Source: a virus. From it: a stretch of 45,845 bases of DNA. The stretch spans positions 1 to 45,845 of IMG/VR virus record IMGVR_UViG_3300008952_000091. One strand, written 5' to 3'. The notes beneath the pieces are model-generated. The model was not told where the DNA came from and did no database searches. It saw only the letters and a list, made by a program, of their open reading frames with translations. Each line of letters starts with the position of its first letter. Within the stretch, counting starts at the first letter, position 1. Below are positions 6,490 through 28,993 of the stretch, piece after piece. The translations under genes were made by a program, and so were the position numbers.

Positions 6490-6518
6490 AAACTACTCCA
6501 TTCGAGCATATATGTCAA
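6490..6518 (-). promoter_or_regulatory. Sigma-70-type promoter, stop codon inside the -35 box
   Basis: TTGACA (6513-6518), a 17-base spacer and TAGTTT (6490-6495) lie upstream of the small gene starting at 6480. The TGA stop codon of the preceding glycosyltransferase gene (6515-6517) is part of the TTGACA box. Confidence 0.6.
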
Positions 6519-7270
6519 TACGGAAATATAACAATTCTTTCTCCTTCATTTACGCTCTTCTTTAATTTGCTTTGCTTCTTTGGCTTAATCATATCTGCTC
6601 CAAATAAAGCCTGAAGCCTTTGTGTGTTCTTTAGCATGGAATCCGTTGTCCTGTACATTGCGCATCCACCATCACTTGTGAAGTTTTGGTAAGTCTTGAA
6701 TACAAATCGCTGGTCGATTACTGAAAAGCGGTTTTTATATATATTCAAGCAACATATATAATAATCCTCTCCCTCATCAAAGCTAAGGTCATACTCTAGC
6801 CCGTGCCCATCTAGGAAACCCATAAATGAATTATTGACGAACTTAGTATGAATAATCGGACGCTGTGACTCATACTGCACCGGTTCTCGCGCGTTACTAA
6901 ATCCGAAATGAAATCCTCCTATTTGCTTGGTAATACTAGCCAAGTCCTGAATAATTCCCCATGACCTTTCTGGGTCTGTTATGTTTGTTTCCATTGTCTG
7001 AGACTCGACCCACTGCCTGCGTATTTGGAACACGTCGTCGTCTATCATGAATATGTTTTTCCAGCGTTCCAGCATCCATTGCCTAGTTGCGGTTATTCCC
7101 CTAATGTCGTTAGGGCATGCAACGATTTCATTATCAGGCAAATGAGCCTTATACTCGTGAACCTCGTATTCTGGTACTACGAATATAACATTGCTTACCA
7201 TGTCTTGGACTAAGGTCTTGCCCGCCCTGCCCATGCTTGGACTTACTAAGTCTACTATTCTTTCACTCAC
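6515..7270 (-). CDS. GT-A-fold glycosyltransferase-like protein (copy 1)
   Basis: The 251-residue protein begins MSERIVDLVSPSMGRAGK and has IFMIDDDV at residues 74-80. The DDD triplet is the metal- and nucleotide-sugar-binding DXD motif of GT-A enzymes, and the N-terminal PS.GR segment is shared with three other proteins in this window. Such small single-domain proteins resemble the TET/JBP-associated glycosyltransferase group described for phage DNA base modification, but I place it there only tentatively. It is linked by a 4-base overlap to a 60-residue gene that is in turn coupled to a ParB-like gene. The acceptor could be DNA, protein or a small molecule. Confidence 0.65.
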   Translation of the reverse strand: MSERIVDLVSPSMGRAGKTLVQDMVSNVIFVVPEYEVHEYKAHLPDNEIVACPNDIRGITATRQWMLERWKNIFMIDDDVFQIRRQWVESQTMETNITDPERSWGIIQDLASITKQIGGFHFGFSNAREPVQYESQRPIIHTKFVNNSFMGFLDGHGLEYDLSFDEGEDYYICCLNIYKNRFSVIDQRFVFKTYQNFTSDGGCAMYRTTDSMLKNTQRLQALFGADMIKPKKQSKLKKSVNEGERIVIFPY

Positions 7271-7449
7271 TTTCTTAGACCCCTTTCAATGTGAACCTCA
7301 TCAACACCCCAAGGATAGTGCTTCATTAATTCCCGAGCGCGAGTTCTGATAACCTTGGGAACTCTGGGGGTCGCCTTTGGGTTTATTATATCGCGCAAAA
7401 ACTCCCTAGTTAAAGTAATCGCCATCACCTTTTGTTCGGTAGTGGTCAT
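7267..7449 (-). CDS. Small coupled protein between ParB-like and glycosyltransferase genes
   Basis: A 60-residue basic protein (MTTTEQKVMAITLTREFL...). Both ends overlap the neighbours by 4 bases (ATGA type), so translational coupling supports it as a real gene. No family is recognised. It may belong to the same functional unit as the ParB-like and glycosyltransferase proteins. Confidence 0.75.
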   Translation of the reverse strand: MTTTEQKVMAITLTREFLRDIINPKATPRVPKVIRTRARELMKHYPWGVDEVHIERGLRK

Positions 7450-8228
7450 GTGTCTTCTCCGTCGTCAAGGCTCATGCCCTCAACTTCCCTATTAAGTTCG
7501 TCCAGCGACAAGTTTCTTGCTTCACTAACTTCGGCGGCGTCGTCGGAAAGTCCGGCATTGTTCAAGTGCTCGAACATTTTGTCCTGAAACTGAGTCGCGC
7601 TTAATACGTAGGATGGCATAACCACATTGCTCTTATAATCCATTTGGGAATCAGTAAGACCTAGATAGTTTCTCATCCAGTGAATATCCAGCTCATTGTT
7701 GCAGAAAATCATAAACGTTGAGTACTTCTCATTATACTTGGGAACAATAGGATACTTTTTTTCAGCAAGTTCCGCCTCAATTTCTTCTGCGGATTCTTCC
7801 ATCTTTTGAATGTCCCTCCAGTGGTCCGACAAGTCCCTTTCTGAGAATCCCCAATCAACAAGTTGCTCTTCGTTGAACTGGTCTTTCAGCATGGAGTAGT
7901 CCCAGTCGCCTTGGTTTTTATTTAACCTAATGTTAAGTTCTTTTTCATCATCAAAACTGAGGTTTACGAAGACAGCGGGAACCTTTTCCATGCCCATCTT
8001 TCTGGCAACCTTTACCCTTTGGTGACCACCCACTATTACATTCTTCCTGTCTGGGTTTTCATTTATTACCACAGGGTCAACAAAGCCGAACTTAGTAATA
8101 GAGTCTTTAATGTCCTCAAGCTTCTTATTTGATAACGTGCGTGGATTGTACTCGGCGACCACCAAGTCTTCCACATCCATAATTACAATATCAAGCTCAG
8201 GGTGTTTTTCTACTGCTTCATCGCTCAT
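7446..8228 (-). CDS. ParB-like nuclease/sulfiredoxin-fold protein (copy 1)
   Basis: The 260-residue protein has the N-terminal ParB domain: VAEYNPRTL near residue 24, then NVIVGGHQRVKVARKMGMEKVPAVFV, where the GGHQR loop is the nucleotide-binding and catalytic-type motif of the fold. An RLNKNQGDWD segment follows, as in the phage ParB group. The C-terminal half carries a separate domain (KYSTFMIFCNNELDIHWMRNYLGL). Chromosomal ParB partners with ParA at parS sites, but no ParA gene is present, and phage members usually sit with DNA-modification genes. Here the neighbours are glycosyltransferase-like proteins and a RecU-like resolvase. Confidence 0.85.
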   Translation of the reverse strand: MSDEAVEKHPELDIVIMDVEDLVVAEYNPRTLSNKKLEDIKDSITKFGFVDPVVINENPDRKNVIVGGHQRVKVARKMGMEKVPAVFVNLSFDDEKELNIRLNKNQGDWDYSMLKDQFNEEQLVDWGFSERDLSDHWRDIQKMEESAEEIEAELAEKKYPIVPKYNEKYSTFMIFCNNELDIHWMRNYLGLTDSQMDYKSNVVMPSYVLSATQFQDKMFEHLNNAGLSDDAAEVSEARNLSLDELNREVEGMSLDDGEDT

Positions 8229-8246
8229 TTCGTTTCTCCGAATTTA

Positions 8247-8729
8247 TTATATTTGCTCGTTTAGAAATTCCATAAAATTTAATACCATGCCGTCCTTTGG
8301 GGGAATATCCCTTACCGCACTGAATGGTACGCTCTTCCTTCCGGAACTCAAGGCTTCTCTTATATCGTCAAGCGTAACCCACTTAAATGCTTCCGGGGTT
8401 TGCCAAACAATTCCTACTATTGCTCCCGCTGAACGCCAATCGTTCAGATATGACAACTGATTTTCCCTTAACCCGCCTTGCCCTATCGGCAGACTTTTTA
8501 ATTGGTTTGATTTAGCCTCTATGCAAATCATTTTTCCGCACGGCATGCATCCTATGAAGTCTGGGAATGGATTTGATAACAAAGTTGTTATCGTTTTCCC
8601 TTTTTTTGATATTGTTCTTGTTGGAGGGTCAACCTTTTCGATATACAGCAATCCTCTAAACCTCATCATATTTGCTTGCTTGCAAATTAAGTTTTCAAGC
8701 GCCTTTCCCGTGTTCTTTCTGAATTTCAT
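8247..8729 (-). CDS. RecU-like Holliday junction resolvase
   Basis: The 160-residue protein begins MKFRKNTGKALENLICKQAN. It shows the PD-(D/E)XK layout: NPFPDFIG (D57), a short hairpin, then MICIEAKSN (E71, K73), followed by a Gln-containing helix (ENQLSYLNDW) and a glycine strand (AIVGIVWQ). This is the arrangement of RecU-type junction resolvases of phages and Firmicutes; VRR-NUC-like nucleases are an alternative. It would cut four-way junctions during recombination-dependent replication or before packaging. It lies between ParB-like copy 1 and glycosyltransferase copy 2. Confidence 0.75.
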   Translation of the reverse strand: MKFRKNTGKALENLICKQANMMRFRGLLYIEKVDPPTRTISKKGKTITTLLSNPFPDFIGCMPCGKMICIEAKSNQLKSLPIGQGGLRENQLSYLNDWRSAGAIVGIVWQTPEAFKWVTLDDIREALSSGRKSVPFSAVRDIPPKDGMVLNFMEFLNEQI

Positions 8730-8731
8730 TT

Positions 8732-9475
8732 CTAGAAATACTCAGAGACGTCTATGTCGAAGCAGGGATTCTTGGTATCTACGCGTTCGGAAATTTTAGG
8801 ATATACTGACTTCAGTTTGGTGAAAACCATTCTTGATAGGGCATCCCTATCTGTTGACTGAAAGCCCCCCCTGTTCTTAAAGGTCAAACAAGACTCATAT
8901 ATTCTCGCATAGGTTCTTGTGTTGTACCCATTGGTTACGCACTCCATTGAAAGGCACAGGTCAACGAATATATCAGCTTCATCCGGAACCTTGAATAACT
9001 CTGTTCTTGATATTGAATTAGAGTAAAAGGGTTTATTGGATTTATATACCCAAATCTCATTGGACTTGTTGCGCATGTATCCGGTCGCTTTCGTAATAGT
9101 AACACCCCCAAGCTTTTCGTCCGAATCGAACTCCGTTACGATTTCATCCAGTGCGTCTTCTAGGGTGCTTGCCGACCTATTCTTCTGTGCGCCCCTTTTC
9201 AGAAACCACATATCATCGTCGCACTTCATTACGAACTCGTACCCATTTTCCTTCGCATAGTTACCGATGAACTTCACCTGACCCTTTAACCCAATGTCGT
9301 TCTGCGTAAAAATCAGATTCGCCATTGGCATAATTTGAGAATAGTAAATTCTCTCCCTTGGCTCAACGAACACCCTGTAGTCGTAGCGCTCAAGTTGCTT
9401 CAGCCAAAACCCCGTGTGCCTCTCTATTTCGTAGGGTCTGCCAAGCGAAGGGACTGCAATCAATAATCTACTCAT
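8732..9475 (-). CDS. GT-A-fold glycosyltransferase-like protein (copy 2)
   Basis: The 247-residue protein starts MSRLLIAVPSLGRPYEIERH and has FVMKCDDDMW at residues 81-90, the DXD site of GT-A enzymes. It shares the PS.GRP opening and DDD position with the three other copies here, but overall similarity looks low. Its start overlaps the HNH gene end by 4 bases and it ends 3 bases before the resolvase gene. It is the only copy without a directly coupled ParB partner; ParB-like copy 1 lies one gene away. Confidence 0.65.
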   Translation of the reverse strand: MSRLLIAVPSLGRPYEIERHTGFWLKQLERYDYRVFVEPRERIYYSQIMPMANLIFTQNDIGLKGQVKFIGNYAKENGYEFVMKCDDDMWFLKRGAQKNRSASTLEDALDEIVTEFDSDEKLGGVTITKATGYMRNKSNEIWVYKSNKPFYSNSISRTELFKVPDEADIFVDLCLSMECVTNGYNTRTYARIYESCLTFKNRGGFQSTDRDALSRMVFTKLKSVYPKISERVDTKNPCFDIDVSEYF

Positions 9476-9804
9476 GTCAAGTATCCTAGTTCTCGCGACT
9501 CTTTCGGATGCGCGTGTATCCAGTTATGGCAAGGGCGACATACTGCCATAAATGTTGCTATATTAGTCATGTTAATTTCCATCTCTCCATCTTCATTTAG
9601 ACTGCTTCCGGTGCGACCGGACTTGTGATGCAAGTCAATCTGCCAATTTAGCCCACCGCACTTTTCACAACGATGTGGCTTGCCCTTAGACCCACCATTG
9701 GGTGAGGGCCTGCTCAAGTACTCTGCTTTGTTTTTCTCGTACAGCTTTCTTTGCGCTACCTTTCTGGGGTTTTTACTTACTTTCCTTAACGGTGTTCGCT
9801 TCAT
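9472..9804 (-). CDS. HNH endonuclease-like protein
   Basis: The 110-residue protein has a basic N-terminus, then CEKCGG, IDLHHKSGRTG and VCRPCHNWIH. This is the zinc-binding CxxC...CxxC plus His-His pattern of HNH nucleases. Small HNH proteins in phages serve in packaging or as homing or repair nucleases. Here the place next to replication genes, away from terminase, argues against a packaging role. Confidence 0.8.
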   Translation of the reverse strand: MKRTPLRKVSKNPRKVAQRKLYEKNKAEYLSRPSPNGGSKGKPHRCEKCGGLNWQIDLHHKSGRTGSSLNEDGEMEINMTNIATFMAVCRPCHNWIHAHPKESRELGYLT

Positions 9805-9807
9805 AAA

Positions 9808-10149
9808 TTAATATGGGTCGGGGTCTTCCGGTTTACTCTTCGTGAGTTCTACGTATCTATCAATTATGACGTCGTAAAATATCTGTCTGGCAACCCTAAT
9901 ATGCTTACATCTGGCCTTCTCTGAGGATACGGCTATAACTCCCTGAGTTATGAGCGGAAATATTCTATATTGGTAATGCTGGCAACTGCACTCGCCCTGA
10001 AGATTATTAGCCTCAAGGTCAACTACGTGAGAAACCCCTTCCTGATGAAGTGAGAAAAACACGTACCTTGTGGGAGATTCGGTGACAGCACCCTTCCTGA
10101 GTGCGTCTAGTTCATCCTCCAACGAAATTGACATTGATTGTCCCGCCAT
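9808..10149 (-). CDS. SWIM-type zinc-finger-like protein
   Basis: A 113-residue protein with GECSCQHYQYR and, 20 residues later, ARCKHIRVARQIF. The spaced CxC...CxH pattern matches the SWIM zinc finger, a DNA- or protein-binding module found in recombination factors and ATPases. Its start lies 38 bases inside the following KH-like gene, so the two are probably coupled. The role is unknown; a place in the replication complex is inferred from position. Confidence 0.65.
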   Translation of the reverse strand: MAGQSMSISLEDELDALRKGAVTESPTRYVFFSLHQEGVSHVVDLEANNLQGECSCQHYQYRIFPLITQGVIAVSSEKARCKHIRVARQIFYDVIIDRYVELTKSKPEDPDPY

Positions 10150-10615
10150 TGCATTTTGCTATTGCTGATATTATTGATGACATGTCTTCGGTTATTTTGG
10201 AATCCAATTCCTCAAATAACTCGCATTCTATTACTGACACCGCACCCAAGTCTTGCCCCTCACATCTAGCGTCAACAAACATTGCCACCCAGTCGTCAAG
10301 CAACTCTACATATGGCAACACCGACCAATTCGGGTTTGTTGAAAACTTCTCCGGCTTTCCAAACCCTTCAGCAGTTCCAAGGAATATAGACAAGGACTTC
10401 CCCTCGCATGTAGCACTTCCGAACACGCTCTTTATTGCGGTTATGTTGGCTCCCCTTGCACCCACCACCTTTCCTTGGTCTTCACCGTCCACGGTGATTG
10501 AATAGGTAATTGATTTCGACATCTCAGCCATTCGCACGTTTACGGCGTCCTTGTTTTTGCAAAGTCCTTTAATTACTTCGGTTAAGATTCTGCATATTTC
10601 TTCTGATTGTTTCAT
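10112..10615 (-). CDS. KH-domain-like nucleic-acid-binding protein
   Basis: A 167-residue protein. After an N-terminal helix pair comes SITVDGEDQGKVVGARGANITAIKSVFG (residues about 39-66), where GARGANI corresponds to the GxxG loop of KH RNA/ssDNA-binding domains of the KhpA/Jag type. The C-terminal half is not recognised. It starts right after the primase-helicase gene stop, and its 3' end overlaps the SWIM-like gene. A KH protein inside a replication cassette is unusual; binding to RNA primers or ssDNA is a guess. Confidence 0.65.
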   Translation of the reverse strand: MKQSEEICRILTEVIKGLCKNKDAVNVRMAEMSKSITYSITVDGEDQGKVVGARGANITAIKSVFGSATCEGKSLSIFLGTAEGFGKPEKFSTNPNWSVLPYVELLDDWVAMFVDARCEGQDLGAVSVIECELFEELDSKITEDMSSIISAIAKCNGGTINVNFVGG

Positions 10616-12523
10616 TTAATAAAAGTCTCCTTCAGGTTCGGTTTCAGTTTCGGTTGCATATTCCGCTTCGGGTGGCGGAGCATCCATTGGACTCGCTGCT
10701 CGCTCCACAAATACATCCCTCATGCCGTGAGCGGTATGGTACTGCCTTGTGTCTATGTTGTAAAACAGTTTTAGCTTAGGCTCCTCACCCTTGTCGCCCC
10801 TTTGCTTTTCTACGCTGAATACTGCATCATGAATGCTTTTTCGCATCTCGACCTCCCTCACCCTGTCCTCTGGGTTCTGGCTTTGGTGTAGCGTGTAGAT
10901 AGTCTCCTCCTTGTCCTTGTTTCTCCATATTGAAACTACGTTATGCGCATTGTCTGTTATTTCACTAACTCCCTTCACGTCCATCTTGCCTGCGCGTTCC
11001 CCTTCTGAATCCTTTTTCCTTGAGTGGGCAACTAGGAAAACATGGACGTCGTACTTATCCACGAAACTGGTTAGTTTGTCCATTAGGGTCTTCTGGGCGT
11101 TATAGTCATCAAATCGCAACCCAAGCTTCATGAGGCTGTCCACTATGAAAAACTGGACATTGTACCTTCTATGGGCATAAATGAATGACTTGAGCATCTC
11201 TTCGGGGTCTACGGCTCCATGGTGGTCGTAAAACCAAAACCCCTCTCCCAGCCAATCCAAGCTAGTCCTCAAATGCTCATCATCCTCCGGTGTTTCTGCC
11301 GCTATACTCTGCCTTACCAACGCACGCAAAGTTTCGTCCGGTCTAACCTCTAAGGATGCTATGCAAGTTCTTTTACCTAGCTGGCACAAGTTTATGCACA
11401 TCCAATTCAGTAGCATACTTTTCCCGCTCCCATTGAATCCGGTAAGAACGGTTAATTCATTCATCCTGTAATGGAATGGTATTTCCCAAGGCGTAGGTAT
11501 GCCTATAGTGACTTCATCTTCCCCAAAGAACTTTTCGTGCATCACGTCGAAAAACTCAGTAACGTTCTTTAGTTTCTCCGGCTCAATGTACTTAACCCCA
11601 GATACGGCTTTAGATAAAACCTCCTGCCCGTGTTTGGTTAGAACCTCATTGGCGTCCTTCTCCGGAAGTTCTATTATCCCGCAACGCTCTATTCCTAGGC
11701 GCTTTATTATGGAAGTCATAGCCTGCTGTCCGGACTCGTCCATATCCATGGACAGCCAAATCTCGTCAAATCTCTCCAAGAAAGTCCAGTCGTTGTCAAT
11801 CCACTCGGAATTGGGGTCGTCCCCTGACTCGCTTTCCCATTTAGCACCAAACGGAACCGATAGCGCGGCATAACCGCACTCCGAATAGGACATGGCGTCT
11901 ACCTCTCCCTCGGTTATTATAACGACCGAATCGTCGTCGCCTATTGATTGCTTTCCAAATAGCCCTTTTTTGCTGTCCTTTGATGTCCGTACTTGCTTTT
12001 TCCCTGCTTCTGAAAGTTGAAGCTTTATATACTTCACCATTTCCATCACTCCGTCCCCAGACTTGTACGGGAATACAATCTCCGTATCAGTAGAGTCGCC
12101 ACAGACGCCATACTTACTAAGCGTATTGGCACTTATGCCCCTGCTGGCTAAATTGTGCAGAACCTTTTCCCCAATTATATTTTCGGGCGGTTGCGGAATC
12201 GTGTACTCCCTGCTCGGCTTATTAAAAGAATCTTCTTCCTTTATGCCAAGAAACGCCTTCGCCTCTAAGAAAGCATCAAGAAATGAAGAACCCCTGACGC
12301 GTATCCAGAGTTCAAGCAAGTTGCTTCCGCCATCACCCCCATTGAAGTCTTTCCATTTCCCAGCCTTTGAGCCGCTTATGCATACCTGAAGGGTTCTCCC
12401 TTTCTCTCCCCCCAAGGAACCCACCAGCCATTCCTTTCCCTTCTTTTTTCCGTTCGGCAATAAGTGCTCACATATTGAAAGGGCATTCTCGCGCATCGCC
12501 TCCTTTACTTCCCTAGCGTTCAT
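10616..12523 (-). CDS. Primase-helicase, TOPRIM plus RecA-like (Twinkle/gp4 type)
   Basis: A 635-residue fusion. The N-terminal ~100 residues resemble a primase zinc-domain remnant without a clear cysteine set. The TOPRIM domain follows with VIITEGEVDAMS (E205) and LSMDMDESG (residues 258-265). The helicase part has Walker A TGFNGSGKS (361-369), Walker B FFIVDS (D462) and the sensor histidine in FLVAHS (H500). It should unwind the fork and may prime lagging-strand synthesis. A strong GGAGGTG ribosome site precedes the ATG, which overlaps the initiator-like gene end by 4 bases. If the zinc domain is inactive it may act mainly as helicase. Confidence 0.9.
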   Translation of the reverse strand: MNAREVKEAMRENALSICEHLLPNGKKKGKEWLVGSLGGEKGRTLQVCISGSKAGKWKDFNGGDGGSNLLELWIRVRGSSFLDAFLEAKAFLGIKEEDSFNKPSREYTIPQPPENIIGEKVLHNLASRGISANTLSKYGVCGDSTDTEIVFPYKSGDGVMEMVKYIKLQLSEAGKKQVRTSKDSKKGLFGKQSIGDDDSVVIITEGEVDAMSYSECGYAALSVPFGAKWESESGDDPNSEWIDNDWTFLERFDEIWLSMDMDESGQQAMTSIIKRLGIERCGIIELPEKDANEVLTKHGQEVLSKAVSGVKYIEPEKLKNVTEFFDVMHEKFFGEDEVTIGIPTPWEIPFHYRMNELTVLTGFNGSGKSMLLNWMCINLCQLGKRTCIASLEVRPDETLRALVRQSIAAETPEDDEHLRTSLDWLGEGFWFYDHHGAVDPEEMLKSFIYAHRRYNVQFFIVDSLMKLGLRFDDYNAQKTLMDKLTSFVDKYDVHVFLVAHSRKKDSEGERAGKMDVKGVSEITDNAHNVVSIWRNKDKEETIYTLHQSQNPEDRVREVEMRKSIHDAVFSVEKQRGDKGEEPKLKLFYNIDTRQYHTAHGMRDVFVERAASPMDAPPPEAEYATETETEPEGDFY

Positions 12524-13895: not shown

Positions 13896-14083
13896 TTCTC
13901 GTCAGGTTCTTCAGGTTCTGCGTCTGACTCAAAGGTTATGTTATGTGCATCCATATAGTCTTTTTTAACATCTTCCAAAATACCTACTATTGCATGGAAC
14001 GGAATGTCAAACTCTTCATGGAACCAATCTACGATATTTACAATCTTGAATTGCAACTCATCAATCTGTTCGTCCAGTCTCAC
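13886..14083 (-). CDS. Small acidic hypothetical protein
   Basis: A 65-residue protein (MRLDEQIDELQFKIVNIVDW...), helical and acidic at the C-terminus. It overlaps the Cys-rich gene by 10 bases and the phosphoesterase gene by 4, which supports real, coupled translation. No family recognised. Confidence 0.75.
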   Translation of the reverse strand: MRLDEQIDELQFKIVNIVDWFHEEFDIPFHAIVGILEDVKKDYMDAHNITFESDAEPEEPDEKWR

Positions 14084-15027
14084 TTTGCCCTCGTTACGTC
14101 ATATGTCATTCCGCGCGTAAGGGGGTCATCGCTCTTACACCAGCCAAGTTTTAGCCACATGGCGCCATTCGGTTTTGGCGGTCCACCTCTTTCGATATGC
14201 CAGCCAGAATGTCCGTCTTCGTATTCTTCTTTATATCCTGCGCATTTAACGTGAAGCTGTTCGTCTTGGTAAACTGTTCCCGTGTCTTTTATTCTTATTC
14301 GCTGAATAGGAAAAATCCATTCGTTATGAGTGTGTCCAGTTACGCAAATGTTTGCATCCGGAAGATATGGAGACTGTCTGGCTGTTTGAATAGTTCCCTT
14401 CGTAACTGGAGCATCACCTCCGTAGCCGTGGTGATACCATAGCCAAATAGAAGCAGTGGAACTTCCTTTTCTTTTGTATCCATCTTTTCCGACATGGGCA
14501 CCGACTTTCCCGTATACTACGTTAAACCTTATCCATCCCGAATATCCTCCGACATGTATATTGCTACCAGTCTTAACGTTAAGCCTGTCTATTAAGCGCT
14601 CAGTAAGGTTTGTTTCGTGATGCTTTAGAATTGCGGTCTCATGATTCCCCATAGACATCATTCCAATGTTATTTGCATAAGGTGTGTAGTACTGCGCGAA
14701 ATCAGATACCAGTGCATCTAGATAATCACCTTGCTTGTACTCTTCCCTTAGGTCGTCCTTGCTGGAGCGCCGGTCAAATCTTCCCTGCATAACGTCGTAA
14801 CAGTCTCCAAAATCAAAAACAAGACCGTTCCTTTCCTTGACTTGCTCAAGGTGTTTTTTTTCCAATGTCCTGTTGCAGTGCGTGGAATCATGGTGAACGT
14901 CGGAACGCAAAAGAAAGTACTGAAAGTCTTTCGTAGACTCCACGTTGCATGTAACTTCAAATACATTTCTCTTCAATCTTTCGCAGGTAGGCAAAGCAGC
15001 TTGTTTTTTTGCAGATTTTTTTTTCAC
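14080..15027 (-). CDS. Calcineurin-like metallophosphoesterase
   Basis: The 315-residue protein contains the metallophosphoesterase blocks in order: SDVHHD (D43, H45), GDCYDVM (D75), GNHE (N128, H129), WYHHGYGG (about 197-204) and GHTH (231-234). It should hydrolyse phosphoesters with a two-metal site; in phages such enzymes act as nucleases, phosphatases or end-processing factors. The start is a GTG at 15027 followed by a run of lysines, and it overlaps the stop of a tiny upstream frame, with no Shine-Dalgarno sequence of its own. The substrate is unknown. Confidence 0.85.
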   Translation of the reverse strand: MKKKSAKKQAALPTCERLKRNVFEVTCNVESTKDFQYFLLRSDVHHDSTHCNRTLEKKHLEQVKERNGLVFDFGDCYDVMQGRFDRRSSKDDLREEYKQGDYLDALVSDFAQYYTPYANNIGMMSMGNHETAILKHHETNLTERLIDRLNVKTGSNIHVGGYSGWIRFNVVYGKVGAHVGKDGYKRKGSSTASIWLWYHHGYGGDAPVTKGTIQTARQSPYLPDANICVTGHTHNEWIFPIQRIRIKDTGTVYQDEQLHVKCAGYKEEYEDGHSGWHIERGGPPKPNGAMWLKLGWCKSDDPLTRGMTYDVTRAK

Positions 15028-19949: not shown

Positions 19950-21818
19950 TTACGCATCGGGTGCAACTATGGTAATCTCGTTTCGGATATTTTGCGGAGG
20001 ACTTACGTCTACTCCTACAAATTGGTCAATAACTCCCTCGTCCGTTAGGCGAATCATATTATCAAATAGCTTTTCTTTCCTTTGTGCGTCAAACCTGCCT
20101 AGCTCGTCTAGTATGGCGATTTTGAACTCACCCTTGCTAGCCATTGCAACTGTAACAGCAGACCTTAGTAATGCCATTTCGGAACCAGAGAACGATTCGT
20201 TTCCTACAAAAACCCCATCCCTGTAGTAGCCTATTTCGTTACCGCTCACTGCGTATGAAAATGGCATAACTCCAGAGGCGAATGAATTCATTATGGACAA
20301 CAGCCCATTCAATACTTCTCCCGTTACCCTTTCCGAATAGTCAGATATAACCTTGGCGGCTGCCTTGAGTATAATCACTTCTCTTTCCGCATCATTGGCT
20401 TTATCGCGCGCCGCAGTTAGGTTTGACAGTTGAGTCTCTCTTGACATTGAGGCCTTGATTAATTCATTCAGCCTAGCAAGTTCCTCTTTCATGGACACCA
20501 AACCTTCGTCCAGTGTGCGTCCGTCCCTGTATTCTTTAAGCTTTTCCTTAGTTTCTTCGATGTCATCCTTTAGTTGCTTTATTAAGGCATCGCTATTACC
20601 GCGACCATCCAACTCAAGGATTTCCTTTAGCTCCGCCTGTATGGGTGCCATAACCTCTTCGTGAGTGCTTACTAGGTCTTTAGTCTTCTGGACTATCTCA
20701 TCCCTTTCCTTGACCATTTCAGCCTGACCAAATGGTTCTAGCTTCCAGACGATGTCGGAATAATCCTCCCCGTCCTTGCATATCTCCAAGCTTGCCATGT
20801 ATGTCCCGTCTTTCAATTTGGGGATTACATCTTCCAGTGACTCATTGCCCTGTTTTTCTCCAAGCACATTTTCGCATTTAAGTATCCTTGTCTGAATCTT
20901 GTCATACTTGGAATTAAGTACCGCGAGTTCGTTTTCAAAGGCTGTCTGAATGTCGGATGCCTGCCCTCTAAGACCATCGGTTCGCTTTTCGTCTGCGATA
21001 GCCTCCGACTTGCTGTGCTCACTTTGCAACTTTTCCGTAAGCTCTACCATGCGATTAAGATACATCTTGCGCTCGGTACATCTTTCGGCTGTTGACTCTA
21101 TTTCGGTTTTGAGCCTTTCCATTTGGTTTGAGTAGAACTCTTCAGACTGAAGCAATGCAGGGTTTTCGGCTAAGGAAATCTCTGCTAGCCCTTCAACTGT
21201 TTTGTTCATCCTGTGCATATAGTCGGTTGCGGCTGACTTGCCTTCCTTGATTTGCTTGGAAAGTTCTGCAAACGCTTCGTTCGGGCTGTGGAACTTACTA
21301 AAAACCTTTCCCGCTTCCTCTGCTATTGAATCCACTATCTTCTTGGACAGTTCGGAGTCATCCACGCTAATTCTATTAAGGTCTCCGACTAAGGTATCCA
21401 AAACGTCGAACCTGTCGCCATCCATAAGAAGCGCAAATATGTTTTTATTCCTCTGGGCAGATGGAGCATTGAAGAACAAGTCTGGGTCTAATTGCATTAG
21501 CAAGCCCATATCTGACTCAACTACCGACTCTCCAACTTCCTTTTTAATCGAAGCTCCGGACTTTGTGAGAGCAAAAGAAAACAACTCGCCAGTGTCCATT
21601 ATTACCGAGGTCTCCATATTAATACCGCTAGATATTGCGAATATGGATTTATTTTGCTTACCAAGCTTGGGGTGATAGCCGAGCATTGAAAGCCTAATGG
21701 AGTCAAGTATTGCCGTCTTTCCGGTAGCATTCGGGCCACATATGAGAGTTGCTGCTCCGAAATCGAACACACCACTAACTCCCTTTACGTTAGTAAGGGA
21801 TGTTTTGGTTATACGCAT
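19950..21818 (-). CDS. SMC/RecF/SbcC-like coiled-coil ATPase
   Basis: A 622-residue ABC-type ATPase. The N-terminus MRITKTSLTNVKGV leads into Walker A CGPNATGKT (27-35). Long charged coiled-coil stretches fill the middle (about 165-490). The C-terminal lobe has a signature-like SFSGSEMALLRSA and Walker B KIAILDELGRFD. It resembles RecF/SbcC-type proteins that tether or process DNA ends in phage recombination. No separate SbcD-type partner is next to it; the phosphoesterase at 14.1 kb is the only candidate and the pairing is speculative. Its start overlaps no gene and lies 5 bases after the acidic gene. Confidence 0.85.
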   Translation of the reverse strand: MRITKTSLTNVKGVSGVFDFGAATLICGPNATGKTAILDSIRLSMLGYHPKLGKQNKSIFAISSGINMETSVIMDTGELFSFALTKSGASIKKEVGESVVESDMGLLMQLDPDLFFNAPSAQRNKNIFALLMDGDRFDVLDTLVGDLNRISVDDSELSKKIVDSIAEEAGKVFSKFHSPNEAFAELSKQIKEGKSAATDYMHRMNKTVEGLAEISLAENPALLQSEEFYSNQMERLKTEIESTAERCTERKMYLNRMVELTEKLQSEHSKSEAIADEKRTDGLRGQASDIQTAFENELAVLNSKYDKIQTRILKCENVLGEKQGNESLEDVIPKLKDGTYMASLEICKDGEDYSDIVWKLEPFGQAEMVKERDEIVQKTKDLVSTHEEVMAPIQAELKEILELDGRGNSDALIKQLKDDIEETKEKLKEYRDGRTLDEGLVSMKEELARLNELIKASMSRETQLSNLTAARDKANDAEREVIILKAAAKVISDYSERVTGEVLNGLLSIMNSFASGVMPFSYAVSGNEIGYYRDGVFVGNESFSGSEMALLRSAVTVAMASKGEFKIAILDELGRFDAQRKEKLFDNMIRLTDEGVIDQFVGVDVSPPQNIRNEITIVAPDA

Positions 21819-22836: not shown

Positions 22837-22867
22837 TTGTTCCTCCTAGTTATATTTAATTTCCCAA

Positions 22868-22895: not shown

Positions 22896-23002
22896 GACTG
22901 TATTAACTTTATTTCAACTGCCGTAATCGGCGTGCGGCTTGCCGTTTTCTGTAAAAATACATACACCTATACAAGAACCTCAGAGCGCGCAATGCGTATA
23001 GT

Positions 23003-23484: not shown

Positions 23485-23485
23485 T

Positions 23486-23719: not shown

Positions 23720-23910
23720 CCCATCGCTCCGTCCATCTTGAGGATTTTCTCAGCTTCCTTTAGGCTAAACCTTTCTATGCCGAAGCGCTTATTTATCCAA
23801 TAGTGTCCACAGCGATGCATGTGCCCCCATTCATGCCAGCCTGCGATACGGAGGGCGAGCTTGCGTGCTGTCAATTTTTGACCGTACGTCATTTTAGGTG
23901 TTTTCTCCAA
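23716..23910 (-). CDS. Small hypothetical protein
   Basis: 64 residues, basic, with a WHEWGHMHRCGH segment whose His/Cys residues could bind a metal ion. The HEWGH order recalls a zinc-protease HExxH variant but the glutamate spacing does not fit. Overlaps of 4 and 22 bases with its neighbours support it as real. Confidence 0.7.
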   Translation of the reverse strand: MEKTPKMTYGQKLTARKLALRIAGWHEWGHMHRCGHYWINKRFGIERFSLKEAEKILKMDGAMG

Positions 23911-24383
23911 AATTCATCTTGTTGAATCCTGCCGTCCCTTAGACCTGTCTGGTACGCCTCTTTCCTCGCAGACCATGGCTTTTCGTGAACGAGCGCGGGT
24001 ATCAGGTGGTCTATGCCGACAATCACCATCTCCGACCTGTTTCCGTCGCCTCCTGTCCTTATGTCTGCTTTCTTTTCCTTCACTAGAGTTCTAAGCAAGT
24101 TCAGCAGTTGTTCAGTCTTCCAAATCAATATAAGGTCTGTGTTGTGCGGGTCTTCCTTGTTGGTCAGTACCGAAACCCACCACTTCGCCTTCGATGCGGC
24201 GATTCCGGAAGCGCGACCATTGCACTTGAACTCGAATGCAAGATTGCCGGAGTTGTGCCACATCTTGTCTGCCTTTACTTCCAGAGAACCCTCGCCCTCG
24301 AATATGTTGCATATTCTTCGCTCCCATATCTGACCGAAGTCTAGGTCTACGTCGAAATTTGATTTTGGTTCAGTCTGTGGCAT
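23889..24383 (-). CDS. PD-(D/E)XK nuclease-like protein
   Basis: 164 residues. After a short acidic N-terminus comes SLEVKADKM (E35, K37, D39), GNLAFEFKC (E51, K53) and a glycine-rich GRASGIAASKA helix. This is the order of a PD-(D/E)XK core in which the substrate is usually DNA: E-x-K-D, then GN-E, then G-SGI. It may trim or nick DNA in replication or recombination. It lies next to the ParB and glycosyltransferase pair at 24.4-26.0 kb. Confidence 0.6.
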   Translation of the reverse strand: MPQTEPKSNFDVDLDFGQIWERRICNIFEGEGSLEVKADKMWHNSGNLAFEFKCNGRASGIAASKAKWWVSVLTNKEDPHNTDLILIWKTEQLLNLLRTLVKEKKADIRTGGDGNRSEMVIVGIDHLIPALVHEKPWSARKEAYQTGLRDGRIQQDEFWRKHLK

Positions 24384-24400
24384 TGTCTTCCTCCTTATTT

Positions 24401-25261
24401 TTATTTGATTTTCTTCCTAAGAGATTCACTTACAATCTTTGGCACTGCGTTATTCCAACTCACTCGATGATGTGGTCTTCTATGCTTGTCCCCCATTTCG
24501 GCAACTTTTACGCTCGATGGATTATACATTACCGCGAAAAAGGATTTAACAAAAGTGCCTTGATTCAAATAAAGGTCAGTCAACCCTCCTGTGGCTTTCT
24601 GGGTACTGGTCTGAATAATGGCGACGTTGGGTACGGTTAGAAATAAATTTCCCTTACTTCCCAGATTTACATAGGCATTAACGTCTTCATTTATATTGCC
24701 AATAAATTGAAATGGTCTGTCCGTACTGCAAATAAAGGTATTCATAGCCTTGCGGTGCAACTTTATCTCTTTACCATATGAGCCATCCTTACCTCCGATA
24801 AAATCTCCATTCTGAGCCATCGCAACAGTCAGGGCATCTATGCTCTTATAGAAACGAAGCATGGAATCTAAAACTCCATCAAGATTCTTAACCCTTCGCT
24901 CTCTATATTCTAAGTCACTATCAAACTTATACACAAATTGACTATAATCATCATCTAGCTGTATGAAGTATTTGATGCCAAGTTTTTCTGCAATTTGGAA
25001 ATTCGCATTTCTTGCATACACGACAGTTGACTGAGGAGTGGTATAATTTATGCCCGTATCAAAAGACCCCTTGATTGCGGATTTATCGAACTCAATAACC
25101 TTATCCCCATACTTGGCTTTGTACTGTTCCGAAAGCTCGTCCTCATTATCTATTACGAGATAGATGCGACCAGTGTATCCCGATTTTTTCAATGAATCGT
25201 AAGTAAACACCTTGTCGGGTCTTCCGTGCGTCAATATGAAAACGGCAAAATCATCCCCCAT
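24401..25261 (-). CDS. GT-A-fold glycosyltransferase-like protein (copy 3)
   Basis: 286 residues, the largest of the four. It begins MGDDFAVFILTHGRPDKVFT and has YFIQLDDDYSQF (DDD at 103-105). Between them come YLVIDNEDE and a ...VYARNANFQIAEKLG helix, as expected for a nucleotide-sugar-binding half. The gene starts 11 bases inside the ParB-like copy 2 gene, so the pair is translationally coupled. Similarity to TET/JBP-associated glycosyltransferases is a pattern-level inference. Confidence 0.65.
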   Translation of the reverse strand: MGDDFAVFILTHGRPDKVFTYDSLKKSGYTGRIYLVIDNEDELSEQYKAKYGDKVIEFDKSAIKGSFDTGINYTTPQSTVVYARNANFQIAEKLGIKYFIQLDDDYSQFVYKFDSDLEYRERRVKNLDGVLDSMLRFYKSIDALTVAMAQNGDFIGGKDGSYGKEIKLHRKAMNTFICSTDRPFQFIGNINEDVNAYVNLGSKGNLFLTVPNVAIIQTSTQKATGGLTDLYLNQGTFVKSFFAVMYNPSSVKVAEMGDKHRRPHHRVSWNNAVPKIVSESLRKKIK

Positions 25262-26003
25262 AGTCTTCCTCCATTATTGAGGTCAATTCTTTCGCCAGTA
25301 TCGCAAACCCACCCTCTATCGCCTTATCGAAGTCAATTATGACCAAAGCGGAATCCTCCATAAGTTGCTGAACCGTTTCATCTGCATGAGCGTAATAGTC
25401 TGCAATTTTTGAATAATTAAAAACGTTGTGTCTATGCGCGGCGAAAATGAGGAACTTCCTCACGTCTTCATCTAGACCGGCTTCCTCTATGCTTGCTATG
25501 AGTTTGAAGAACTTGGATGTGTCGTATAATTCTTCGACGCCCGGATTTCTGCCCGATGGTTCGTAAGTCGGACCTTTTATAACCTTGGTGTATTTGGGGG
25601 AAAGCGAATCTACGTCTCCCGCTATTTCATCCAGTTCGTCTTTACTGAATCCGAGGACGTCGAGTTCTTCGCCCATTTCGCTTAGTTCCTTGATTTCCGC
25701 AGCCAATGCGTCGTTGTCCCAAAGGGCTTCCTCCCCAACTCTGTTGTCTGCTATCCTGTAAGCCTTCGCCTTGGCTTCAGAAAGGTCGGCGACGAAAATG
25801 GGGACTTCCTTCATGCCCAAGGATTTGGCGGCAAGCAATCTGGTGTGACCGGCGATAACCACCATCTCCTTATCCACTACTATGGGTTGTTGCCAACCGA
25901 ACTCCTTTAAGCTCGCCGCCACCTTACTAACCGCATCCGTGTTTAGGCGCGGGTTTCGGGCGTATGGTATTACGGCATCTATAGCAATGTCGCGAATATC
26001 CAT
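25251..26003 (-). CDS. ParB-like protein (copy 2)
   Basis: 250 residues starting MDIRDIAIDAVIPYARNPRL. The ParB core is clear: IPYARNPR, then MVVIAGHTRLLAAKSLGMKEVPIFV, then RIADNRVGEEALWD. The C-terminal ~120 residues form a second domain (GVEELYDTSK, VFNYSKIADYYAHADETVQQ, ALVIIDFDKAIEGGF) that I recognise from phage ParB proteins often found with DNA methylases. No methylase is present; the coupled gene is a glycosyltransferase. It follows the ribbon-helix-helix-like gene without a gap. Confidence 0.85.
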   Translation of the reverse strand: MDIRDIAIDAVIPYARNPRLNTDAVSKVAASLKEFGWQQPIVVDKEMVVIAGHTRLLAAKSLGMKEVPIFVADLSEAKAKAYRIADNRVGEEALWDNDALAAEIKELSEMGEELDVLGFSKDELDEIAGDVDSLSPKYTKVIKGPTYEPSGRNPGVEELYDTSKFFKLIASIEEAGLDEDVRKFLIFAAHRHNVFNYSKIADYYAHADETVQQLMEDSALVIIDFDKAIEGGFAILAKELTSIMEEDYGG

Positions 26004-26210
26004 CTATTCTTTTTCCTCGAATACCACACCATTGTCTATGCAGTGCTCGCAAGCACTACGCACGAAGTGAGACAGGGACATCTTCCTGTTGAGAGCTTCT
26101 TTTACGAGCATCTCCTTCCATGTTGCGGTAGCGGATACGGAAACTTGAGGAATCCGTTCTATCTTTTCGCCACCTAGGGCAAAGTTCTTAATTCTGTAGC
26201 GTTGGGTCAT
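26004..26210 (-). CDS. Small protein, possibly ribbon-helix-helix
   Basis: 68 residues. QVSVSATATWKEMLVKEALN followed by SLSHFVRSACEHCI fits a CopG/MetJ-like fold: a strand, a helix, a turn with a Ser, and a second helix. It could be a small repressor that controls the ParB/glycosyltransferase pair immediately downstream. Assigned by pattern only. Confidence 0.5.
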   Translation of the reverse strand: MTQRYRIKNFALGGEKIERIPQVSVSATATWKEMLVKEALNRKMSLSHFVRSACEHCIDNGVVFEEKE

Positions 26211-26264
26211 ATTATATTATTTCTTGGGTTATACGTTGGATAGAAATAGTAAGGGTTGAGTTAA

Positions 26265-26290
26265 GCGAGCCACGCTCGCGCCGATTTTTT
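26265..26290 (+). other. Hairpin with T tract in intergenic region
   Basis: GCGAGC-CAC-GCTCGC is followed by a nine-T run on the plus strand, which is a terminator shape. No plus-strand gene precedes it, so it may protect against read-through from minus-strand antisense transcription, or be chance. Confidence 0.35.
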
Positions 26291-26314
26291 TTTGCGTCAA
26301 GACCCCCATAGGGG

Positions 26315-26749
26315 TTAGGTCTTGCCGTCTTGTAAGCCTTGTGCCCACTGTACCACTCCCTTTAGTGATGTTACAGCATGTTCCAGTACTTTGGCTGTAT
26401 CCGCCTTTGGCGAAGCTATGTGATAAGCTAGGTCATGCAGGTCGTTGGCTAAGGACTGGCGCCAACTCATTGAATTTGAGTTTTCTTTCTTATGTTGGTC
26501 TTCTGCTTGCTGGAATATGTCATCGAACGTGTTCTCAATGTATGCGTCTTCCGTGAGGGTGTCTTCCTCTATCTCGACTTCCTCTAGTTTGTATATGTGA
26601 TATAGGTAGTCCTTTTGGCATTCCCTGTCTTCTAGGCAGTAGTCATGCGCCTTATCCATAGAGGAGAAAGTGCCTATGACTTTTTCCACCCCGAAATTGC
26701 CGGTGTTATGCAGGACGACTACATACTTGTTTTTCATTATCATTATCAT
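26315..26749 (-). CDS. Hypothetical protein
   Basis: About 140-144 residues. The start is ambiguous because MIMIM gives several ATGs, and the last (26737) gives MKNKYVVVLHNTG. An N-terminal beta-rich part (YVVVLHNTGNFGVEKVIGTF) is followed by an acidic helical region and a C-terminal helix with DLHDLAYHIA. No family recognised. No Shine-Dalgarno sequence is visible. It is the last gene before the ribbon-helix-helix-like and ParB genes. Confidence 0.65.
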   Translation of the reverse strand: MIMIMKNKYVVVLHNTGNFGVEKVIGTFSSMDKAHDYCLEDRECQKDYLYHIYKLEEVEIEEDTLTEDAYIENTFDDIFQQAEDQHKKENSNSMSWRQSLANDLHDLAYHIASPKADTAKVLEHAVTSLKGVVQWAQGLQDGKT

Positions 26750-26755
26750 TATTAC

Positions 26756-26860
26756 TTATTGGTATAATTGTTTGTTATTGAGCACCCAGATGACGTAGCA
26801 AATTGCTACAATCGTAAGAAGGGCTAAAATGTACATGGCTCCCTTCCAGTTTTTACTCAT
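26756..26860 (-). CDS. 34-residue single-span membrane protein
   Basis: A very small frame: MSKNWKGAMYILALLTIVA and on to YVIWVLNNKQLYQ. Residues 8-27 are a clear membrane segment. The start overlaps the TGA of another tiny frame (TCATGA), so the two are coupled. Too small for a family assignment; a holin or regulator is possible. Confidence 0.6.
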   Translation of the reverse strand: MSKNWKGAMYILALLTIVAICYVIWVLNNKQLYQ

Positions 26861-26928
26861 GAGCAACACACTGCTATGAAGAATACAATAAGCATCAACA
26901 GGGTTAGCTTGAACTCAATTGAATACAT
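26857..26928 (-). CDS. 23-residue membrane peptide
   Basis: MYSIEFKLTLLMLIVFFIAVCCS: almost the whole peptide is hydrophobic, ending in two cysteines. It begins 2 bases after the stop of the 26931 gene and its stop overlaps the next start, which supports translation. Confidence 0.5.
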   Translation of the reverse strand: MYSIEFKLTLLMLIVFFIAVCCS

Positions 26929-26930
26929 GC

Positions 26931-27152
26931 TTACCCGTTGTCGGGATTGCTGGCGTATCTGTTGAGCATGGTTATTACACCTTTCTTCGTTAGGTCGAAT
27001 TCCATAGGGACGGCTCTTTGGTCGTCATTCCCATAGTACGCTCCTTCTGACATTTCCCTAAAGACTCTACGCGCTTCTCTCTTGGAGGCAAAATATTCCT
27101 TGCCTGTAGACTCGCCGTATTTGTCGGTATAGTTATTTTGATATATCTTCAT
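26931..27152 (-). CDS. Small hypothetical protein
   Basis: 73 residues, MKIYQNNYTDKYGESTGKEY..., with a charged middle and an RYASNPDNG end. No family recognised. The start overlaps the upstream gene by 20 bases. Confidence 0.7.
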   Translation of the reverse strand: MKIYQNNYTDKYGESTGKEYFASKREARRVFREMSEGAYYGNDDQRAVPMEFDLTKKGVITMLNRYASNPDNG

Positions 27153-27624
27153 CGCTCTCCTCCTGTTGTTTCATGCTCGCTATGTCCTTCCTGACTTGCA
27201 ACCAATATTCGTGGTACTCCTTGCATCCCATGTGAAACATCTGGTTAATCATTTCCGTAAAATTAAGCATGAACGCACTCCAGAACTTTTGGGAGTCATC
27301 CGGCTCCGGAAGTTCCTCGTTTTCCTCTCCCCATTCGCCTGTGCGCTGATTTACGAACAATTCAGCTATGCTGTAAGTGTCGTAAGCAACTAATTTATTG
27401 CACAGTATTCCGTCCTTATACATTTGGTCGAGGAATGGGCCGATTGGCGGGCCGTCCGGCTCTTCATCGCGAGACATTTTTTCATGGAAATTGTAGCGTT
27501 CCTTGAAATTGGGGTCCGCCTCATCGTCTTCCTTCAGATGGAACTTGACCCATGAGCCATTCACGTTGAGTTCGCATTTCATCTCGAACTGTTCTCTTTG
27601 ATTGTGATATTTTTCTTTTTTCAT
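27133..27624 (-). CDS. Hypothetical acidic protein
   Basis: 163 residues, acidic at both the middle (EENEELPEPDD) and the C-terminus (QQEESDEDISK). A central FMLNFTEMINQMFHMG helix is the most hydrophobic part. It starts 18 bases after the stop of glycosyltransferase copy 4 and could belong to the same operon. No family recognised. Confidence 0.7.
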   Translation of the reverse strand: MKKEKYHNQREQFEMKCELNVNGSWVKFHLKEDDEADPNFKERYNFHEKMSRDEEPDGPPIGPFLDQMYKDGILCNKLVAYDTYSIAELFVNQRTGEWGEENEELPEPDDSQKFWSAFMLNFTEMINQMFHMGCKEYHEYWLQVRKDIASMKQQEESDEDISK

Positions 27625-27642
27625 TTTTATTTTCTTTGGTTT

Positions 27643-28374
27643 TTAGTTTCCAGTTACGGGTATCTTCATGCGGGTTTTGTTCCCCCACTTGCTTTCGAGT
27701 ATTTCCTTGCCCCATCTTCGATTCATTGCGTCCAGAGCTTTCTTATTCATTTCTTCAGTCCGCTCTATTCCACCAACCTGTTTCTTTGTTGAGCCAAGCT
27801 TGTTAATGTTGCATGAGAACTCAAAGCAATATCTGTTGTCCCGAAAGCCCATCCTGTCCTTTCTCATGCACTGAAGCCAATAGTCCTTGTCTTCGTGGTC
27901 CTTCAGTTCCTCGACGTATCTCAGGTCGCTTGATTTTCTCAAGCATACGCATCCGTACATCTGCTTCGTCAGACTGAATGGCTTGTATGGGCTGTATAGC
28001 CATGCAAGAGCTTGGGATAGTCGCGGAACAAAACCGGCTATGTGAACACCAAGGTCATCCGCCATGACGCCTACGTTCTCAAGAAGTTTCTCTACCTCGC
28101 CGGAGTACTCTTTCAAGGTCATTAGGTCGTACACTCTTTCCAAGTCGTCGTCCATCATCCACGCCCACTCCCCTTCCTCCAGTAAATCCAATATTGCGTT
28201 GGATTTTCTTGCAATGTTTCCGTCCTTTTCGTCCGGAATGGAAATCACCTTGCCCGGATACGATTTCTCATACTCAGCGCGTTGTGATTCCGGCACTACC
28301 ACCATTGCCGAGGGCACAAAGTCCAAGGTGGTGACGTTTTCCGGTCTATTGTAACTAGGAATTAGAATCTTCAT
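27643..28374 (-). CDS. GT-A-fold glycosyltransferase-like protein (copy 4)
   Basis: 243 residues starting MKILIPSYNRPENVTTLDF, with AWMMDDDLERV (DDD at 75-77) in the usual DXD place. Near the N-terminus SAMVVVPESQRAEYEK and ARKSNAILDLL correspond to the donor-binding half; a GGIER region and basic C-terminus follow. It starts 20 bases inside the ParB-like copy 3 gene, the third ParB plus glycosyltransferase pair here. The closest-looking sequence is copy 1, judging by the opening pattern. Confidence 0.65.
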   Translation of the reverse strand: MKILIPSYNRPENVTTLDFVPSAMVVVPESQRAEYEKSYPGKVISIPDEKDGNIARKSNAILDLLEEGEWAWMMDDDLERVYDLMTLKEYSGEVEKLLENVGVMADDLGVHIAGFVPRLSQALAWLYSPYKPFSLTKQMYGCVCLRKSSDLRYVEELKDHEDKDYWLQCMRKDRMGFRDNRYCFEFSCNINKLGSTKKQVGGIERTEEMNKKALDAMNRRWGKEILESKWGNKTRMKIPVTGN

Positions 28375-28993
28375 TCTTTATCTTCCTTAAATATTTTCCA
28401 CCGTCCACTACCCTGCCTATTCCCCCGCCCCAAGACCTTCCGTCCCTGCCTTTGCCGGATTCGTGCTTCACCCCAAAATGTTCCTGCGCCTCCACCCATT
28501 CCAATTCCGTCCGGAAAACAAGAACGACGTAATCGTTGTTTTCCCCGATTTCCTCAGTAAATTCCATTTCCGGCTCCGGTTCATCCGGCTCGTCAAGCAT
28601 GGAGTTAAGCTCCTTTTTATCAAATCCCAATACGTCCACGTTGAAGTCGTCTTCCATGAGGGACTCTATCTCCGCCTTCAGAACGTCTTCGTCCCAACCC
28701 GCATTCATGGCTAGCTTATTGTCGGCTAAAACGTAGGCTTTCTTTTGTTTCTCCGACAATCCCGCCAGAATTATGCACGGAACTTCAGTCATTCCGGCTT
28801 TCTTCGCCGCCATGGTGCGCCCGTGTCCTGCTATTATCCCACCGTCCTCGTCTATCAGGACGGGACTCGTAAAACCAAATTCTATTATGCTTGCCGCGAG
28901 CGAGGCTACTTGCTCCTTGGAGTGAGTCCGCGCATTGGTAGCGTATGGAATGAGCTTGTCTATACTTCTTTGGGTGTGCTCGTAGTGATTCAT
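28355..28993 (-). CDS. ParB-like protein (copy 3)
   Basis: 212 residues. The ParB core is textbook: LIPYATNARTHS, GGIIAGHGRTMAAKKAGMTEV, then LADNKLAMNAGWDE. The C-terminal part includes DYVVLVFRTELEWVEAQEHFG, which is found in phage ParB proteins and recalls the C-terminal region of ParB-like copy 1. It is coupled to the glycosyltransferase gene downstream and overlaps the 28990 gene by 4 bases. Confidence 0.88.
   Translation of the reverse strand: MNHYEHTQRSIDKLIPYATNARTHSKEQVASLAASIIEFGFTSPVLIDEDGGIIAGHGRTMAAKKAGMTEVPCIILAGLSEKQKKAYVLADNKLAMNAGWDEDVLKAEIESLMEDDFNVDVLGFDKKELNSMLDEPDEPEPEMEFTEEIGENNDYVVLVFRTELEWVEAQEHFGVKHESGKGRDGRSWGGGIGRVVDGGKYLRKIKNEDSNS

Follow-up and report, generated by a model that had tools for sequence, protein, structure and literature searches.

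ParB-type proteins paired with TAGT-family glycosyltransferases: a candidate two-component glycosyltransferase of phage DNA

In the classic settings of the TAGT glycosyltransferases, the gene directly before the TAGT encodes either a TET/JBP dioxygenase, as in Nonlabens phage P12024L, or a dCMP hydroxymethylase, as in Citrobacter phage Merlin. The T-even TAGT (beta-glucosyl-HMC-alpha-glucosyltransferase) adjoins a dCMP hydroxymethylase and a beta-glucosyltransferase and adds a second sugar; an excerpt of PMC13216743 names the T2 and T6 enzymes as acting on glucosylated 5-hydroxymethylcytosine in DNA. The same excerpt counts a solitary TAGT in 288 of 753 glycosyltransferase-bearing phage genomes, and there suggests novel transferases and names no partner. 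ParBc genes have been noted near the DNA carboxymethyltransferase CmoX, in an excerpt of PMC12783734 that calls the role of ParBc unknown. Here we describe a stretch of virus DNA, IMG/VR record IMGVR_UViG_3300008952_000091 (45,845 bases, classed as linear and perhaps a fragment; hereafter the window), in which three ParB-type genes are each paired with a TAGT gene. On balance we lean towards the view that each pair is a two-component, ParB-directed glycosyltransferase of phage DNA. TAGT family membership, solitary TAGTs and ParB genes beside modification enzymes are already known. What appears to be new is the ParB/companion-TAGT pair, the range over which it occurs, and the companion domain described below; none of these was found described in the papers searched, which did not include the survey of Iyer et al. 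2013, where ParB beside TAGT may already be mentioned.

The seven open reading frames (ORFs) at issue, noticed earlier in a sequence-only reading of the window, were all present at the positions it had given, on the minus strand. The four proteins called glycosyltransferase-like (GT1 to GT4) all score above the cut-off of the Pfam TAGT model (PF20691, 27.5 bits), and each contains one DDD motif. GT2 (24401-25261, 286 aa), which belongs to a widespread branch, scores 127.4 bits; GT1 (6515-7270, 251 aa, GTG start, phrog_842, DDD at residue 77) scores 52.6 bits, GT3 (27643-28374, 243 aa) 44.6 bits, and the most divergent, GT4 (8732-9475, 247 aa, DDD at 86), lies closest to the cut-off at 29.6 bits. 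The T-even TAGT shares this Pfam family and the GT-A fold, and over residues 1-108 GT3 has 35.4% identity with T-even TAGTs whose genes neighbour that of dCMP hydroxymethylase. The three ParB-like partners are likewise above the cut-off of ParB_N (PF02195, 26.3 bits): ParB1 (7446-8228) at 42.8 bits, ParB2 (25251-26003) at 39.0 bits and ParB3 (28355-28993; phrog_620, 8.5e-60) at 27.6 bits. All three have a GHxR motif of the GxxR type, for which nucleotide binding is putative; in ParB1 it reads GGHQR. ParB2 overlaps GT2 by 11 nt and ParB3 overlaps GT3 by 20 nt, while ParB1 is coupled to GT1 through a 60-residue gene, ORF60 (7267-7449, minus strand; NCBIfam NF041728, BPSL0761 family, 39.7 bits, cut-off 35), with a 4-nt overlap on either side. 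As in P12024L, then, the TAGT lies directly downstream of its partner gene, but the partner is a ParB-type protein instead of a PF12851 dioxygenase; the ParB-type gene occupies the place held by TET/JBP or dCMP hydroxymethylase in the classic settings. In a single alignment GT2 is only 16-18% identical to the other three window glycosyltransferases, and the copies are therefore old, as expected of the old, repeated two-gene module that had been proposed.

The proposed search for the same adjacency in other viruses gave a clear result. A viral scan with GT2 as query returned 200 related stretches, and the best 80 of these were analysed. In 78 of the 80 loci the gene immediately upstream of the TAGT is a ParB-type ORF; in the remaining two the contig itself begins at or just before the TAGT ORF (position 1 and position 75). 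Prokaryotic genomes scanned with a GT2-branch alignment gave 16 loci, and the partner is directly upstream in all 16, one of which (L111) is cut by a contig end. These loci are in Bacteroidota, Pantoea, Superficieibacter, E. coli, Frischella, Thiotrichales, Clostridia, Ligilactobacillus, Acidimicrobiaceae and Gastranaerophilales. Relatives of GT2 occur in 34 phage records. When the longest ORF is taken, the ParB and TAGT ORFs overlap in 180 of the 188 plus-strand pairs tallied. The pair precedes the terminase in an E. coli Rac-like phage, Lactobacillus phi jlb1, Porphyromonas phage 005b and Nocardia NTR1, and lies upstream of it with eight genes between in haloarchaeal virus HHTV-2. Of 70 non-redundant loci with enough sequence to tell, 47 have an ORF for the large terminase subunit no more than 3 kb downstream, a count made with seven query terminases and to be read as a floor. 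Divergent TAGTs show the same arrangement in the small number of cases observed: in Streptococcus phage Javan291 the upstream gene, annotated as a DNA modification methylase, is a 196-aa ParB, and upstream ParBs are found at L214, by profile match, and at L207, where a degenerate ParB was recognised by eye. At one locus (L105, 5165-6846) two TAGT genes stand in tandem behind a single ParB. The viral-contig scan with GT3 as query gave no locus, GT4 had no match among phage records, and megablast of window positions 5000-29500 found nothing. TAGT is rare in the phylum draws, being above the cut-off in 3 of 395, 1 of 398 and 2 of 398 genomes with the centre genome counted each time; genome G052 is over the cut-off only when counted with its neighbours.

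The constant partner of the TAGT is a C-terminal companion domain of about 115 residues, rather than the ParB domain. In ParB2, where the ParB N-domain covers residues 1 to about 132, the companion domain starts at about residue 134 (25251-25604, minus strand) and is helical. It has no matching model in Pfam or NCBIfam, and in PHROG 620 it is covered solely as the C-terminal end of a family of ParB proteins. The C-terminal region of ParB1 is unlike that of ParB2, and that of ParB3 is short. Full-length ParB2 matches 540 phage records, only 24 of them over 80% of its length, and its last 120 or so residues match 28, all within the 34 that have a GT2 relative. The six that were not matched come from Ld17, LL-Ku and Porphyromonas; a companion profile does match the Porphyromonas ParB, at 3.6e-10. 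The single window companion sequence found one locus only among the viral contigs. A viral-contig search with the companion domain alone gave at least 581 relatives, of which the best 80 were kept, some of their contigs being shared with the GT2 scan. A TAGT adjoins the domain in all 79 loci with room, and is the immediate next gene in 71 of the 80. Of the nine exceptions, two have a longer overlap, five an inserted gene of the same kind and one an inserted methyltransferase-like gene; the ninth meets a contig end 18 bases past the domain. No ORF was found that joins companion domain and TAGT in one protein.

The two also evolve jointly. In a mirror-tree comparison of 71 non-redundant pairs (TAGTs less than 85% identical), the distance correlation was 0.557 between TAGT and companion domain, against 0.172 between TAGT and ParB N-domain, with partial correlations of 0.538 and -0.017, respectively. 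The bootstrap interval of the difference was 0.19-0.54, and the maximum of 500 permutations 0.270. With the overlapping ends trimmed the values were 0.504 and 0.153; the rank correlations were 0.385 and -0.004. Mean pairwise identity is 0.50 for the companion domain and 0.35 for the ParB N-domain. The contrast in correlation may be partly due to linkage, the N-domain lying farther off on the DNA. The ParB-type/companion and TAGT genes almost certainly form one functional unit. A ParB that serves in partition, with the glycosyltransferase as a bystander, was considered and set aside, since every locus examined had the companion together with a TAGT, and the two evolve jointly. The same strict coupling and joint evolution make it very improbable that the sugar goes to RNA, to a lipid or the host envelope, or to a nucleoside metabolite, with the ParB a bystander in partition or regulation, even though AvpGT structures that contain a nucleoside ligand, 18-19% identical in sequence, are on the Foldseek list for GT2.

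The expectation of a GT-A fold was borne out for GT2, the one glycosyltransferase modelled. Its AlphaFold2 model (32 sequences, pLDDT 88.0, pTM 0.86) is GT-A by both Foldseek and VIA-align. It matches N-acetylglucosaminyltransferase I (1fo8; Z 14.8, rmsd 3.7, 194 aligned), and the lists further contain SpsA, chondroitin polymerase and polypeptide GalNAc transferases. D104 and D105 of the DDD metal motif are invariant across 32 alignment rows. The ParB2 model (pLDDT 83.0, pTM 0.51) matches the ParB clamp 7bnr over residues 2-138 (Z 15.1, rmsd 2.2, 134 aligned) and, more weakly, sulfiredoxin and free serine kinase. Beyond residue 138 it has no credible structure match, the Foldseek and VIA lists being dominated by the N-domain; sequence searches of solved structures with the glycosyltransferase and companion alignments likewise gave nothing credible. 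The C-terminal part of the model, which is helical, drops to low confidence at residues 133-144 and 225-234. Several highly conserved residues of the protein lie in or next to these stretches, which may become ordered on a partner. The sequence-only reading had named three outcomes that would speak against it; two were looked for, ie a fold other than GT-A and an adjacency not conserved in relatives, and neither occurred.

No TET, methylase or hydroxymethylase gene had been visible in the window, and the corresponding models (PF12851, PF00303, PF00145 and PF01555) were all negative there. The same models were run against records that bear the pair. TET/JBP (PF12851) was found in none of 40 whole pair-bearing records and the thymidylate-synthase fold (PF00303) in one, the 191-kb Vibrio phage pv27, while the positive controls, P12024L and Merlin respectively, were detected. 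The N6/N4-methylase model (PF01555) matched one of 40, a Porphyromonas fragment, and its control P8625. C5-methylase (PF00145) was found in none of 24 records; for this model the control was limited to the named control genomes, 10 of 14 of which were detected. Seven of the 40 carry complete-genome titles in GenBank, down to 31.8 kb; the set includes several close relatives, and many may be fragments. As no gene recognised in these records would supply a hydroxylated base, what they encode is not the classic pathway of TET/JBP or T-even type. DNA glycosylation might nevertheless proceed in two steps, a missed phage or host enzyme (another 2-oxoglutarate dioxygenase, a divergent hydroxymethylase, or the product of a gene outside the window) hydroxylating the base before ParB-TAGT adds the sugar. 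Such a route would agree with the characterised TAGT settings seen, both of which have a neighbouring enzyme, with the window being a possible fragment and with the thymidylate-synthase-fold gene of pv27. We consider it unlikely in view of the negative searches just given, several of them in complete-genome entries. That no separately encoded hydroxylation step is needed is a tentative proposal, which we would place somewhat short of an even chance.

The likeness to other ParB-linked systems lies in the N-domain. PHROG, PADLOC and Pfam all hold phage proteins in which the same ParB N-domain is combined with other catalytic parts. The statement of the sequence-only reading that phage ParB proteins commonly sit with DNA-modifying enzymes agreed with the three examples fetched, in each of which the N-domain is fused to such a part shortly before the large terminase, and each of which is annotated as a DNA modification methylase. 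These are ParB with DUF4417 in Streptococcus phage Javan174 (L225, 3980-5089), ParB with N6_N4_Mtase in Verrucomicrobia phage P8625, and ParB with PAPS_reduct in the archaeal virus Blf4 (L227, 1242-2486), where the ParB_N match is below the Pfam cut-off. With one N6_N4_Mtase, one PAPS_reduct and one DUF4417 among the three scanned, the label 'ParB-methyltransferase' was dropped for genes annotated in this way. Across 115 aa, ParB3 shares 39% identity with the ParB domain in one ParB-DUF4417 fusion. The N-domain is thus common to the fusions, to the ParBc beside CmoX and to the pairs described here, but the fusions carry their catalytic part in the same protein, whereas here the glycosyltransferase has an overlapping gene of its own, and a dedicated companion domain makes the link. 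Since the N-domain occurs with such varied enzymes, ParB may be read as a phage-DNA adaptor with exchangeable enzymes. An extension of this is that a canonical base, for instance at an exocyclic amine, is glycosylated without prior hydroxylation under the guidance of the ParB clamp, the TAGT being one of a set of plug-in methyl-, thio-, carboxymethyl- and sugar-transferring partners. This is conceivable, although we regard it as doubtful.

Candidates for genes of the sugar donor were also seen. Five of the 80 companion loci (L143, L147, L162, L182 and L189) have, between ParB and TAGT, a gene that fuses a histidine phosphatase to a cytidylyltransferase-like domain. The one scanned, in L143 (814-1782), scores 129.8 bits with PF00300 and 52.8 bits with PF01467, and its nearest NCBIfam models include alpha-ribazole phosphatase, glycerol-3-phosphate cytidylyltransferase and heptose-1-phosphate adenylyltransferase, all three below cut-off. 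These matches suggest an enzyme making an activated, unusual donor. In the window, an RmlD-like short-chain dehydrogenase/reductase gene of the nucleotide-sugar reductase/epimerase type (30878-31783, plus strand; PF04321 43.8 bits, cut-off 27; PF01370 30 bits), overlooked in the sequence-only reading, lies 1.9 kb from ParB3. It is a possible donor-sugar gene for the glycosyltransferases, with no match in the phage collection. RmlD-like genes were present in 3 of 42 records searched, so they are not tightly linked to the pair, and the case for such a gene as part of the module is weakened.

For a ParB-directed glycosyltransferase of phage DNA the following mechanism may be proposed. The TAGT protein, with its GT-A fold and DxD metal site, would transfer a sugar from a nucleotide-sugar donor. 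The companion region at the C-terminus of the ParB-type protein would dock on the TAGT, and the ParB N-domain, a nucleotide-binding clamp-type module, would carry the enzyme to phage DNA, most likely late and near the time of packaging. DNA is probably the acceptor of the sugar, to judge from relatives of the enzyme, and a base the most likely site. As TET/JBP, dCMP/dUMP hydroxymethylase and C5-methylase could not be recognised in these genomes, the sugar would be set either on a base that undergoes no separate hydroxylation or on one modified by some enzyme that still escapes recognition. Protection from host nucleases would be the expected benefit.

A number of observations weigh against this proposal. 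The support for DNA as the modified acceptor comes from relatives and gene context, and many protein glycosyltransferases (GalNAc-T, POMGNT) are among the closest folds of GT2. Such folds, and the location of the pair among packaging genes, would also suit a TAGT that decorates a virion or packaging protein (capsid or terminase) or the ParB itself, with the companion as a substrate-binding adaptor. An excerpt of PMC4351075 proposes that mycobacteriophage glycosyltransferases encoded between portal and protease genes modify the capsid, and the major head protein of LL-Ku bears a note of post-translational modification. Protein glycosylation is all the same improbable in our judgement, as the nearest characterised relatives act on DNA and the ParB N-domain is common to DNA-modification proteins. 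To return to ParB-directed modification of DNA, the negative searches for precursor enzymes were made partly on fragments and close relatives, and hydroxylases beyond the tested families were not searched for. The mirror-tree contrast is small among closer pairs (0.463 for the companion, 0.358 for the ParB N-domain). The ParB N-domain is undetected in 24 of the 80 companion-domain ORFs, 20 of them of 110-153 residues and four longer, so ParB targeting is not essential everywhere. The companion region occurs in six Vibrio phage records, and in pv27 it is a 139-aa gene adjoining the TAGT, without a ParB N-domain. The Vibrio phages and the 24 loci rule out the ParB domain as an obligate partner. 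The ParB-glycosyltransferase link put forward in the sequence-only reading is therefore real as an adjacency, but the tie runs through the C-terminal domain, and ParB, though often present, is dispensable. Finally, Lactobacillus phages Ld17 and LL-Ku (L097 and L098) have a TAGT before the terminase and no ParB. Lactobacillus c5, of the same genus, has the full pair as the first two genes past its cos site, before the terminase, and offers a natural comparison.

The fourth glycosyltransferase of the window had been taken as a further protein of the same kind. It is indeed of the TAGT family, but it is not a loose gene, since it heads a run of minus-strand genes, GT4 - RecU-like Holliday junction resolvase (8247-8729; PF03838 33.8 bits, cut-off 25; phrog_843) - ParB1 - ORF60 - GT1, which is kept in this order in a second virus (L089) at 64, 56, 58, 38 and 75% identity, respectively. 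There a gene for a MazG-type pyrophosphohydrolase is inserted (L089, 2006-2341). Judged by eye, the C-terminal segment of ParB1 resembles its counterparts in L089 and L207. The left end of the window has portal and prohead protease genes. Elsewhere, all on the minus strand, an Amidoligase_2 protein (41688-42605, 79.8 bits) lies beside a class-II glutamine amidotransferase-like ORF (41082-41576, below the Pfam cut-off), and the two may form a peptide- or amine-ligating pair. A DNA repair exonuclease-like gene (14080-15027, phrog_7339) and an AAA_23/SMC-like ATPase gene (19950-21818), with a UvrD helicase gene in between, are perhaps a split SbcCD-type pair. A KH-domain protein of KhpA/KhpB type (10112-10615; 40 bits, cut-off 32.1) is unusual for a phage, and a protein with an MgsA AAA+ C-terminal domain (39.9 bits) is encoded at 37989-38675.

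The pair is also widespread in E. coli. Among 5426 complete E. coli genomes, 1572 have a match to the pair of Escherichia phage vB_EcoS-683R6, and in 885 of these the match spans at least 80% of the pair. The ParB of this pair is the YnaK of the Rac prophage. K-12 MG1655 retains a 264-base ynaK ORF, with no glycosyltransferase annotated there. The DNA of E. coli strain L73 is 100% identical to the vB_EcoS-683R6 pair over all 1717 bases. Its ynaK (L224, 5001-5258) carries the annotation of an incomplete pseudogene, yet its sequence is that of an intact 263-aa ORF, and its glycosyltransferase is annotated as hypothetical; the reference name ynaK appears to derive from the truncated K-12 form. 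With at least 80% of the pair matched in those 885 genomes, the question of the acceptor can be tested in laboratory E. coli. For the family, the solitary TAGTs of one large branch gain a partner in the companion domain, which is in most cases part of a ParB-type protein. Should the acceptor prove to be DNA, the pair would represent a route of DNA glycosylation without the known hydroxylating step. It would also offer a testable job for the ParB proteins that phages encode beside modification enzymes, a role described as unknown in the excerpt of PMC12783734.

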